Positions 14,078 through 53,604 of a stretch of 64,000 bases of DNA are shown piece by piece. The translations under genes were made by a program, and so were the position numbers. This DNA comes from Entrophospora sp. SA101. Its lineage: Eukaryota > Glomeromycota > Glomeromycetes > Entrophosporales > Entrophosporaceae. Below the pieces are notes generated by a model. That model did no database searches and had not been told where the DNA came from. It saw nothing but the letters and a program-made list of their open reading frames with translations. Numbering within the stretch: the stretch's first letter is position 1; the number at the start of each line of letters is the position of its first letter. The stretch is taken from assembly GCA_958430865.1 (NCBI GenBank), contig CAUDNR010003557.1, forward strand, positions 5,465-69,464, written 5' to 3'.

Positions 14078-14493
14078 AATATATGGGCCATACTGCAACA
14101 AAACCAGACAAAGTGAACATTGGTATTACCAAGAATTTCAGGGATCAAAATTTAGTAATGTGATTATTAAAATCTTCCATTTGTTATCCTCTTGATATAT
14201 AGAATTACCTCTATATAAAAATAGTTAATATGAAGCTAATTTACATCAGATCTACTATGGAACCAAAGAATTATAGCACCATTAGAAGTATTTTGAAGAA
14301 GGAACAAGGTGAAAAAATTGCTCCTTATATTTTTAAATTAGCAGATACTAAATCCTTGCAAACATATTTAGATAAAGAAAGGATTACCTATGAAATTTAC
14401 CAAGAAGAAAGAAAAATAATAAACACTAAGAAAAGAACATTAACACAGAACCACAAAAAACCTAGAAAGAAAAGAAAATCAGTAGAGAAATAA
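14078..14493 (+). CDS. Repeat-borne ORF (MKLIYIRST family), unknown function
   Basis: An 87-codon frame starts at 14230 with MKLIYIRSTMEPKNYSTIRS and ends in a very basic Lys/Arg tail. The upstream stretch 14078-14175 can be read in a nearby frame as KPDKVNIGITKNFRD. Both parts recur at 51051-51245 in the opposite orientation, with conservative changes, and the upstream part alone recurs at 32812-32862. Recurrence with amino-acid conservation suggests a once-functional protein of a mobile unit. I do not recognise the family. It is convergent with the TGA-as-Trp ORF at 14517-15303, only 23 bp away. Confidence 0.4.
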
Positions 14494-47788: not shown

Positions 47789-48713
47789 ATGAATGCAAAT
47801 AATGGTCCATGCAAAGTTAGAGGTTGTGATAAAAATGATCCTGATAAATATAAATTTAAGGTAAAACACAATATTGCAGTATTGATGCTACTGCTCATTA
47901 TAGTTATGATTGAGCCCAAAATGTTCATGTGCCACATTTAGATCAACAAGTAAGTAAAATCTATTACCTTAGTCTATGTAAATTTCATTTATTCAGTATT
48001 CAAGATGAAGCAGTAAGAGAACAAATTAATTATGTTCTTAATGAAGATGAAATTATAGGAAAAGGCCCCAATGGCACTCTTAGCATGATTTTTGATGGAA
48101 TCAAGAAATTGAATAAAGATGAAAAGCATTACTTGTGGTAATGCTGGTGGGCAGAATAAAATAACACTACAATTTGATTTTATTTATATTTGGTAATTTG
48201 TGGTTATTATTAAAGTATTGAATTGAATTTCACAATTCCTGGACATACTAAATTCAAGTGTGATGGCAATTTTGGCATGATTAAAAACTCTATAGAAGAA
48301 CAAGAGTAAATTGTCTGGATCATGTAGTAGATGTAATAAGAAAATCTAGTTCAGCTGGGTTAAATAAAGCACAGTGTTATGAAGGTGAAAAAGGATTTCA
48401 ATATTTAGATATTAAAGCAATTTTGGGAATTTATTTTAAGAAATTACCAAGCATACAGAAATATCAACATTTTCTTTTTGAAGCATCTAACTTTGGTGTG
48501 GTCAAAGTTCAGGAAATTGCTAATGGACCTTTTATTGAATCCAATTTATTGAAAATCAAAAAAGCAGATATTTTTGAAGAAATTAGAGCTTTGCCTATTT
48601 TGGTGTTAACACCGCTTACTTTGGATTACAAAAGACAAGAATATCTTTACCAGAATATTCATCCATTTGTGAAAGACAAATATAAAGATATTACTTGCCC
48701 CAATCCAGCATAA
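47789..48713 (+). pseudogene. DUF7869-type transposase, frameshifted
   Basis: It starts MNANNGPCKVRGCDKNDPDK and then shifts frame. It has HYSYD-TGA-AQNVHVPHLDQQ, KIYYLSLCKFHLFSI and ITCGNAGGQNK, then NFTIPGHTKFKCDGNFGMIK and YRRTRVNCLDHVVDVI. It ends GIYFKKLPSIQKYQHFLFEA ... DITCPNPA. The DxxxGQNKN-like block and the PGHTKFxxDxxFGxIK block are the hallmark of the DUF7869 family (RNase H-like, found in eukaryotic transposon proteins). At least three frameshifts and stops kill it. Its C-terminus matches the fragment at 15326-15600. It is convergent with the TGA-as-Trp locus C, 42 bp away. Confidence 0.65.
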
Positions 48714-48755
48714 AATGTAATTGAATAATTTTTATACTAAAATAAAATGACATAA

Positions 48756-50198
48756 TTAACTATTATGTTTTTTAATCCTCACTGTCTTAATAACTAAAAT
48801 AACTAGAAGACACAATAGTATTCCACAACCAACCATTCAATAAGTTTTCTCTCTCTTGTTCTTATTAAGTTGGTTTTCTAGTTGAGCCCTGGGAATTTTA
48901 TTCCATTTTTGATAGTAAGTTTCAGGATTTCTTATTTTTTCTGCAACTCATTCATCTTAGAAATTGATTGTTTTTTTTGGGGTCTGAATTGCCTTCATCA
49001 TTTTGCAATGTGAATCTAGGAAAAAGTAATATCAAAGATTCAGATATGGGATAAGTTTCACAATAACTTGAAGAATTTCTGTTTCTTTTCTTCATATTGT
49101 GTGGCCTTTTCATTAAGTTCACTTTTGATAGTAAAACCACCAGCAAATGATGCAGATTTCATTTTTTGTATAAGTTCTTGGCAGACTTCTCCAATTTGGT
49201 CTCAGGTTCCTTGGTCTGGGAAAACTTTTTCTCAATATACTTTTGATTCCTACACTTCCATAACCTTCTTTGTATTTAGGGACCACCCGCATATAAAATG
49301 GGGTGAATTTTGGGTGCCAATTGGTGGTATTGGTATACTAACTCTGTAGCCTTTTGGATTATAAGCCTTGACAACCTTTTTAACAACATCTCTAAGTACA
49401 GGTAAAATATCTGATCATTCTTGCCTAGTTATTTCTTCAAAAGTGTCAGCATGGTGTTTGGTACACAATGTTACATGAACTTTAGAATTTTGCCTTAAAA
49501 CCGCCCCAGCAGTTACACTTTTCCCTAGCTCAGAGACTTGAGATTTAAGCATTCCTTTTTTATTTAGTTCCATTTTGTCACACAAATAGCAAATTAGTTC
49601 ATTCCCTTCTGCACTTTTTGGACAAATATAACTAGGAGTATTATCATCTTTTCAAGTAAAGTGTTCATTTTGTTTACCTCTTGCAATTTGTTGGTGGAAA
49701 TTATGACTATACATGAAGTCGAAATTAAAACCCCAAAGTTGAAATGTTTTGACTTGAGGCAACTACATAGTAAAAATCAGTTTCAACCTTATTTCGACCC
49801 TATTTCAACCAGATCTGCAAATGGTTGAAATAGTTTCGACTTCATGTATAATTATGACATTGCAAGCATTTATATCCTTGACTAACTTCATAAGTGGTAA
49901 CATCCCAGTCCAACATAATTTTGCATTGAGGGCACCATATAGTAATGCTGTCTCATCTACTACTGCCTTTTTGATTAATAATTCTTGTCCTAAAAGGCCA
50001 ATCAAAATTTCTTTATTTTTAAGGTTTCTCTAATGATAATTTATTATTTCTTTATTGGTCAGCAGTATTTTCATCTAATTCTTTTTGAATCAAATTTTCA
50101 GAGCATTCTCAGCAACAAAATTGGTGGATCTCGTTTTCTTCATTTCATCAATTAATTTCTAAACCTTCTTTTATATTATTACATTCTTTTTTGGTCAT
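48756..50198 (-). pseudogene. Zinc-ribbon membrane protein(s), TGA = Trp (locus C)
   Basis: ORF 1 (50052-50198) starts MTKKECNNIKEGLEIN, has TGA-TGA and then FCC-TGA-ECSENL, and ends TAA. The next frame, from NFDWPFRTRI (50009), has knuckles CPQC and CLQC, and is interrupted at 49850 by a MITE. It resumes with QQIARGKQNEHFT-TGA-KDD, ICYLCDK,KVHVTLCTKHHADTF and TRQE-TGA-SDILPVLRD. After a TAG at 49252 come VY-TGA-EKVFPDQGT-TGA-DQIGE and KFFKLL-TGA. It ends NPETYYQKWNKIPRAQLENQ and KTY-TGA-MVGCGILLCLLVILVI, a transmembrane helix with basic residues after it, stop 48756. At least nine TGA codons sit at good Trp positions; TGG is used too. Frameshifts near 49000 and 50030 show decay. The function is unknown. 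Confidence 0.6.
49708..49850. mobile_element. 143-bp MITE with exact 8-bp TSD, inserted in locus C
   Basis: The perfect 17-bp inverted repeat TATACATGAAGTCGAAA is at both ends. The flanking direct repeat is ATTATGAC (49700-49707 and 49851-49858). Discounting the insert and one TSD copy restores the frame across KCLQCHN-FHQQIARGK of locus C. A half copy lies at 28442-28503. The 8-bp duplication suggests a hAT-type element. Confidence 0.9.
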
Positions 50199-50489
50199 GA
50201 TTACTTATTAATATAGTAAGTTTTAAGCAAAAAAAAAGAAGCCAATTCCAAGTGGAACATGTAGTATTGTTTTCATAAATATTACTGGGGAAGATAAAAA
50301 TAGGTAGTAAGTTGTTTTTTTAGATTTTGTTGTCCAAAGATTTTTGCATTTTATTATGTAACAATACATCATCATGATGCTTTCTTTTTCCAACATTTAT
50401 TATTTTTCTTTCTTCTTGTTAAATTTCATAGGTATTCTTTTCTTTTCTTAGATAAGCTTTCAGTGTATTGTGCAATCTGAGTTTCCTAT
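50199..50489. other. AT-rich spacer
   Basis: No gene or defined repeat is recognised between locus C and the LTR-like repeat. Confidence 0.4.
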
Positions 50490-51019
50490 TTAACAGGTTA
50501 TTTTGCATTCAACACACAGCCTATCTGCTGACTTATGGTCAAAGTTACTTTTATATGACACACAGCCTACTCGCTGACTTACGGTCACTAGTTTAATTAG
50601 CTAATTATATCCCAAAGGCATTCCCTTGAGACATATCTGAATAATTAAAAGGGTTCCCAACTAATAATTAAAGGTTGACCAGACCATTAATCATTAGAAG
50701 GCTTGGGGGGACAACCACACTGGGTTTATTAGTTACTTACAGTCAAAGACTATTTTATGTAAGGTTATATATTTATTAAGAGTTATTATTATGTTATTAT
50801 CATCAAGGTTGTTATCAACCATATTAACAATTGATTAATTCTTTTAACTTGGTCTAAAGCCAAGTGTATTTATACCTCTTGGGGCAGTACAAATAACATG
50901 ATGTGTGCTATTCTACTCTCCAATAATATGCTTATCAACTAATTACTAATTCTAAATAAATATTTACATCAGATGAGTAGGTTAATAAATATAAATATAG
51001 AAATATGAATAGGAATAAT
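50490..51019 (-). repeat. LTR-like repeat, third copy
   Basis: Homologous to 16302-16800, and to 16985-17480 without its MITE. It ends at GAATAGGAATAAT near 51019. Two direct copies of ACACACAGCCTA plus CGCTGACTTACGGTCA-like sequence lie at its left side (50510-50585). It provides the empty site for the MITE at 17011. Confidence 0.6.
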
Positions 51020-51050
51020 TATTTTAAAAACATATGGACATCCTATTCTT

Positions 51051-51245
51051 TCTTCAAAATACTTCTAATGGTGCTATAATTGTTGGGTTCCGTAGTAGAT
51101 CTGATGTAAATGAGTTTCATATTAACTATTTTGTCTAGACAAATATCATGATCGCATTACATTGTGATGTTAAGCAAACATTGTTGATCCCTGAAATCTT
51201 TGGTAACACCAATGTTCACTTTGTTTGGTTTTGTTGCATGCCCAT
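51051..51245 (-). pseudogene. Fragment of the MKLIYIRST repeat ORF
   Basis: On the minus strand, HATKPNKVNIGVTKDFRD (from about 51243) and, after a stop, MKLIYIRSTTEPNNYSTIRS with ILKKE then a stop. It is homologous to 14078-14300. The C-terminal half is missing. Confidence 0.6.
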
Positions 51246-51436
51246 ATAATATAATTTGACATGATCGACAATCGGGAATTTTAGAGATTAGTAATTATTA
51301 TTTATTATTATTATTATTGTTATTATTATTATCGCTAAAATTCAGGCCCCTGAAATTTTTATGTTACAGCAATCATGCCCCAAATACTGAAAAAATATAT
51401 TATAAACTAATTTATTATAAAAAACTTAAGAACAAG
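51246..51436. promoter_or_regulatory. Upstream region of the NDR kinase gene
   Basis: Short AT-rich leader with a (TTA)n microsatellite at about 51297-51332, starting only about 50 bp from the repeat fragment. The promoter must be compact or overlap the repeat. Confidence 0.4.

Positions 51437-53604
<2,168 letters not shown>

Follow-up and report, generated by a model that had tools for sequence, protein, structure and literature searches.

A truncated copy of a many-copied transposon in Entrophospora carries genes written with TGA at tryptophan positions

A stretch of 64,000 nucleotides from Entrophospora sp. SA101 (contig CAUDNR010003557.1, positions 5,465 to 69,464), hereafter the window, holds a truncated copy of a DNA transposon; the element has inverted repeats of 64 bp at its ends and two convergent genes, one encoding a protein with the domain DUF7869 and the other, called here the cargo gene, a HIT-like protein. 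Both genes are written with TGA at tryptophan positions, and the divergence among their copies was mostly built up under selection as proteins of genetic code 4. The reading favoured here combines decoding in Mollicutes with a long or repeated stay in the fungal nucleus. We infer that TGA was decoded as tryptophan by an endobacterium related to Mollicutes and living inside arbuscular mycorrhizal fungi. Copies of the element would have moved into the fungal nucleus, once or time and again, and they are now numerous there. This account is considered fairly probable.

The element and its copy in the window

A first-pass annotation had described an open reading frame at 48756..50198 and regarded it as endobacterial DNA captured in the fungal genome. 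Its coordinates are correct, as the minus-strand frame begins with ATG at 50198, ends with the stop TAA at 48758-48756, and contains 14 TGA and no TAG codons. The element is larger than this interval, extending from about 47846 to 51246 (Table 1), and homology among copies continues through the convergent second gene into the 64-bp repeat. The capture of a single piece of endobacterial DNA is not supported, as the cargo gene belongs to a many-copied inverted-repeat element.

Table 1. Parts of the element and later changes to it, in window coordinates
Feature	Position	Strand	Remarks
DUF7869 gene, 3' part	47846..48713	+	81-88% homology to intact copies L052-L060; left part of the element and left repeat absent
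Broken cargo gene	48756..50198	-	zinc-binding Cys motifs, HIT-like domain, C-terminal membrane helix; 14 in-frame TGA
Deletion junction, about 150 bp lost relative to other copies	49216..49217	-	reference positions 856-1004 missing; gap also seen against the other copies
MITE-like insert, 143 bp	49708..49850		imperfect inverted repeats (88%); 8-bp target duplication at 49700-49707 and 49851-49858
Later insertion in the element, about 580 bp	50467..51045		homology ends at 50466 and resumes at 51046; other copies have about 50 bp between
Right terminal inverted repeat	51184..51246	-	96% match to the 64-bp repeat over 51238-51184; outer bases by alignment

Inverted repeats at both ends are present in copy L016 (contig C1904), at 1275-1338 and 4905-4842, giving a nominal length of 3631 bp that includes some N; its DUF7869 gene is partial, with a run of N present, and ATAT lies on both sides of the element in AT-rich flanks. 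The window retains one such end. Among the copies examined, none was seen with both repeats and both whole genes, and the 64-bp repeat was not found in the short flanks of copies that have only the DUF7869 gene. A genome search with the repeat yielded 40 scored matches from 1407 first-look candidates, and a hand comparison of contig positions among the matches listed placed 8 of these 40 within 5 kb of a TGA-type DUF7869 match. Two more copies of the terminal repeat lie in the window itself, at 14093-14148 (plus strand) and 32851-32803 (minus strand).

Searching the same genome (101.3 Mb, 2123 contigs) at the DNA level returned 64 matches, 23 of which cover only the MITE-like insert, at 92-97% identity; this short inverted-repeat element, 49700-49858 with its 8-bp target duplication, is thereby found at no fewer than 23 further sites. 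A protein search with the best cargo copy, L014 on contig C1876, gave 71 matched stretches, counting distant ones on endobacterial contigs. Contig C1904 also carries near-identical (99.5-99.9%) versions of the cargo-bearing element and its flanks, L015, L016 and L017, within about 45 kb, perhaps a segmental duplication or an assembly artefact.

The window copy of the cargo gene is dead because its private changes comprise 20 nonsynonymous, 7 synonymous and one stop. The first-pass annotation had noted TAA and TAG as few and as adjoining frame breaks; TAA codons are indeed few and TAG is absent, and the frame is also disrupted by 21 indels of 1-11 bp, by the deletion of about 150 bp and by the 143-bp MITE-like insert. 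A lost intron was considered for the gap at 49217 and ruled out, as the missing stretch is coding in other copies. The claim that the cargo gene lacks introns and ends in a membrane helix is borne out.

TGA at tryptophan positions in both genes

With the reading frame of the window copy set by L014, 416 aligned codons of the cargo gene contain 14 TGA, two TAA (one of them the final stop), no TAG and four TGG. In the two remaining forward frames of this stretch there are together 23 TGA versus 49 TAA and TAG, a distribution that differs from that of the true frame (Fisher p = 1e-4). Of the 14 TGA codons, 12 coincide with TGA or TGG in one or more of the other copies, and the remaining two, at reference codons 398 and 430, are private to the window copy. 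L014 itself is open for 131 codons with 7 TGA, followed by one TAA and then by 361 codons with 8 TGA and a terminal stop, giving 15 TGA in total. Across 12 copies, with the reference L014 left out, in-frame totals are 102 TGA, 17 TAA, no TAG and 21 TGG.

Tryptophan sites of the cargo gene, defined as positions where the majority of copies carry TGA or TGG, are occupied in 13 copies by TGA 102 times, by TGG 21 times and by all other codons 12 times. TGA and TGG are exchanged among copies at identical sites, for example codons 74 and 445, and metagenome homologues such as P0013 (500 aa) have tryptophan at the TGA sites. Under code 4, pairwise dN/dS is at most 0.40 in 58 of 66 pairs (range 0.13-0.66; L048 and the near-duplicates L015, L017, L021, L024 and L025 left out). 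On terminal branches, 10 stops were seen versus 9.9 expected at the neutral rate and omega is 0.42, which fits decay following a selected history. The site counts and the code-4 dN/dS uphold the first-pass reading of TGA as tryptophan. RIP and random decay were considered as the source of the TGA codons and are ruled out on three grounds: other copies have TGA as well, and both the dN/dS values under code 4 and the comparison of frames speak against them.

The protein of L014 has Cys pairs near its N-terminus and a hydrophobic stretch at its C-terminal end, and scores 24 bits against the HIT profile (PF01230), above the cut-off of 21.5. Its histidine triad is not intact, reading HFYMR where 3imi, compared with homologue P0006, has HFHLH (the sequence in L014 is PHFYMRIV); for this reason the protein is classed by its sequence as HIT-like rather than as a HIT hydrolase, and hydrolase activity appears unlikely. 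It resembles the HIT family (3imi, 1y23 and metagenome proteins to which JGI gives the name Ap4A HIT family hydrolase) in its profile score and in sequence matches to solved HIT proteins, but differs from it in the altered triad, in a zinc-binding N-terminus and a membrane helix, and in being borne on a transposon. With two of three triad histidines lost, this protein of about 490 aa would more likely serve as a membrane-anchored binding protein than as a hydrolase.

The second gene shows the same use of TGA. The DUF7869 profile (PF25273) scores 62.4 bits on copy L052 against a cut-off of 26; the window has only the 3' part of the gene, in which a single TGA, at 47911-47913 (code-4 frame 47860-48141), falls at the conserved tryptophan site SYDwAQN, and this site is TGA in all 13 aligned copies. 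A DUF7869 gene on contig C1657 has 607 open codons with two TGA and three TGG, and both of its TGA codons lie at positions retained as tryptophan in ordinary relatives. Among the matches listed, from a search in which 150 of 622 candidates were scored to give 152 matches, a hand count found TGA in 69 of 69 near-full-length matches (at least 185 of 200 residues), 45 of which have no other stop and 40 of which have exactly two TGA and no other stop. Ordinary DUF7869 relatives in the same genome served as the control, from a search that scored 134 of 603 candidates and gave 149 matches. Among the matches listed, 22 by hand count share 50% identity or more across 280 or more of 291 residues, and 18 of these 22 are stop-free; the nucleus therefore seems intolerant of TGA inside working genes of the DUF7869 type. 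Some rows of these DUF7869 match lists, on different contigs, appear to duplicate one another.

Selection on the DUF7869 gene under code 4 is evident from a median dN/dS of 0.21 over 135 pairs, with one pair (L049-L011) at 1.15. Copies L052-L060 were chosen mostly for their long frames (L057 for its single TGA), so that the scarcity of further stops in them cannot count as independent evidence; in eight of these long-framed copies, L057 being excluded, dN/dS is 0.10-0.20 with changes concentrated at third positions. TGA and TGG vary at four of five tryptophan sites, and L058 and L060 have, in their longest frames, five and four TGA, respectively, and one TGG each. Reference codon 24, near or before the start, is TGA in five copies and ACA in two and is not a tryptophan site. 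Over nine copies terminal omega is 0.39, versus 1.36 for a shifted-frame control. L060, with 7 nonsynonymous and 24 synonymous private changes, still looks to be under selection, and L057, with 30 and 10, looks neutral. A sequence search of the PDB found no solved relative of DUF7869. The protein of about 580 aa is probably the transposase of the element, and its work would be the cutting of DNA at the inverted repeats and the joining of the cut ends.

These patterns bear on an explanation in which the TGA codons have no meaning at all, an ordinary fungal transposon lineage having gained TGA stops once and then spread in trans by means of intact relatives. As this explanation would have it, the DUF7869 family includes ordinary fungal genes too, and most copies share the same two TGA sites. 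Against it stand the exchange of TGA and TGG at tryptophan sites, dN/dS values far below 1 (seen also in the private changes of L060) where the shifted frame exceeds 1, and the existence of another gene whose tryptophan sites are often TGA. Together these make it highly improbable.

Composition, tRNAs and the site of decoding

Several contigs of the assembly come from resident endobacteria of Mollicutes type. Bacterial genes that contain TGA lie on C1609 and C1643 (for a tRNA thiolation enzyme, ribosomal protein L4 and histidyl-tRNA synthetase), and 16 genes of C458, C1609 and C1643 pooled contain 74 TGA and 25 TGG. These three contigs are classed as endobacterial by gene content, which served as the control for endobacterial contamination; C923, with a HIT gene containing TGA and a higher GC content, is assigned less surely, and C792 and C1735 by their tRNAs alone. 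No close copy of either gene of the element is present on these six contigs among the matches listed, and the cargo gene has only distant HIT relatives there, of 28-36% identity.

Contamination of this kind was considered for the window itself and rejected. Kinase-domain pieces follow the element at 52225-53139 and correspond one after another to consecutive parts of the profile, in the manner of exons of a single gene; a fungal MITE sits inside the cargo copy; and the twelve contigs with copies of either gene total 1.13 Mb, more than the 0.33-0.62 Mb given for Mortierellaceae endobacteria in PMC10507103.

The composition of the copies argues against a simple bacterial gift. CpG observed/expected is 0.02-0.15 (pooled 0.08) in the long-framed DUF7869 copies. 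The corresponding ratio is 0.66 for genes of the resident endobacteria, 0.28 for fungal ORFs and 0.30 for a single ordinary DUF7869 gene. Codon usage tilts slightly toward that of the fungus, at -0.006 to -0.047 per codon where held-out endobacterial genes score +0.02 to +0.19. In neither respect do the copies resemble the genes of the resident endobacteria, the set with which they were compared. Together with the missing close copy on endobacterial contigs among the matches listed, the scarce CpG and fungus-like codons tell against plain captured endobacterial DNA. Such CpG depletion is expected from a long stay in a CpG-methylating nucleus. Positions at which copies are divided between TG and CA are no more frequent in the DUF7869 gene than in controls (11 versus 18, 16 and 9, with L057 excluded), from which it follows that this gene lost its CpG ahead of the radiation of its copies; in the cargo gene such positions are more frequent (36 versus 18-20), and its CpG was therefore lost largely within copies.

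The main rival to decoding in an endobacterium is a purely nuclear element whose TGA codons are read as tryptophan by the fungus itself, through efficient readthrough or a special tRNA. Such an element would display what the selected copies do, namely a CpG content that is strongly reduced and a codon usage like that of the fungus, and would also show many copies on fungal contigs and, among the matches listed, none on endobacterial contigs, as is the case. Nuclear decoding is nevertheless judged unlikely, given that ordinary DUF7869 elements of the same genome mostly avoid in-frame TGA and that the TGA codons of the best cargo copy, 15 in all, would have to be tolerated. The tRNAs also speak against it: a pattern search for UCA tRNAs, blind to a tRNA with an intron behind the anticodon, gave four matches, of which three are tRNAs, and all three, on C792 and C1735, have the encoded CCA end of bacterial tRNAs. 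ARAGORN labels these three selenocysteine tRNAs; by their sequence they are taken for tRNA-Trp. On C792 (226 kb) two pairs of tRNA(UCA) and tRNA-Leu(UAA), differing in sequence, lie 102 kb apart, which could reflect a duplication or the joining of two strains.

A more intricate possibility is a transposon of two codes. It would survive in the nucleus of arbuscular mycorrhizal fungi, where CpG is depleted, and would stay functional by passing through Mollicutes endobacteria, nucleus and endosymbiont together forming one life cycle of the mobile element. Such a cycle would agree with all the observations, explaining together the selection in code 4, the loss of CpG, the star-like pattern of copies whose tips were selected, and the close relatives found in more than one fungal order; it is put forward tentatively, as possible rather than probable.

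Relatives and significance

The nearest relative of the element's DUF7869 protein outside the TGA clade is I3273_02745 (P0052), from a metagenome-assembled genome (MAG) of Candidatus Moeniiplasma glomeromycotorum, which is sister to that clade with support of 88/86, under the starred level, and on a long branch. Candidatus Moeniiplasma is an endobacterium that uses code 4. P0052 shares 52% identity with L052 and 55-64% with its better matches in the Entrophospora genome; it differs in being shorter (329 aa), is known here from its protein sequence, and comes from a MAG, a type of source that can be contaminated. The link to Mollicutes proposed in the first-pass annotation gains from this relative and from the UCA tRNAs of the assembly. 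In place of homologues with TGG and no endobacterial match, the searches found copies that carry TGA and, for DUF7869, this relative in Candidatus Moeniiplasma.

A code-4 donor other than a Mollicutes endobacterium, whether another bacterium or a mitochondrial-type plasmid, would be in keeping with the differences in CpG and codon usage between the element and resident endobacterial genes, and no close bacterial copy was found in GTDB contigs, IMG/VR or plasmids. Both the sister protein from the Candidatus Moeniiplasma MAG and the HIT proteins with similar later motifs on resident endobacterial contigs weigh against such a donor, which is regarded as quite improbable.

Standard-code DUF7869 proteins of Glomeromycotina (P0047 of R. 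irregularis, P0049 of R. clarus and L013 of the same genome as the window) resemble that of the element in sharing the domain, with overall protein identity of 36-41%, and in occurring in many genome copies. They differ in using TGG for tryptophan and in being mostly stop-free, whereas the DUF7869 gene of the element has TGA at tryptophan sites, forms its own clade with P0052 and is accompanied in some copies by the HIT cargo. Inside the TGA clade (support 99/99) are gene models of Gigaspora rosea, Ambispora, Diversispora and Geosiphon, relatives that suggest an arbuscular mycorrhizal fungus as the source of the window. Four models examined closely, P0030, P0031, P0038 and P0041 (from Ambispora, Gigaspora rosea and Diversispora), skip the surroundings of one or both TGA sites, as though introns had been introduced into these public models to dodge the TGA stops. 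In Ambispora leptoticha a DUF7869 gene and a HIT homologue have the consecutive numbers 8269_t and 8270_t, the contigs of both being given as 12,507 bp, and the pairing of the two genes therefore seems to be old.

Exchange of genes between these partners has been described. PMC10507103 reports fungal genes (MGMT, kinases, LRR) in endobacteria, and PMC5982333 describes bacterial genes of R. irregularis that came from donors other than known Mollicutes endobacteria; PMC11423566 and PMC8647823 also belong to this literature. The present case has the same partners and differs in that the genes in code 4 belong to a repeated element located on fungal contigs. A search of titles and abstract openings, with most subscription papers and all bioRxiv preprints outside its scope, found no mycoplasma-code transposon in a fungal genome, and the literature searched for DUF7869 by name gave no lead.

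If the favoured reading of decoding in Mollicutes and residence in the nucleus is true, a eukaryotic repeat family has genes selected in a code foreign to its nucleus. Transfer from bacterium to fungus would become testable in a system where the opposite direction has mainly been reported, and the copies would constitute a molecular record of past endobacteria in the fungal genome. As public gene models skip one or both TGA sites, the family may be hidden or mis-annotated in the public genomes of arbuscular mycorrhizal fungi.
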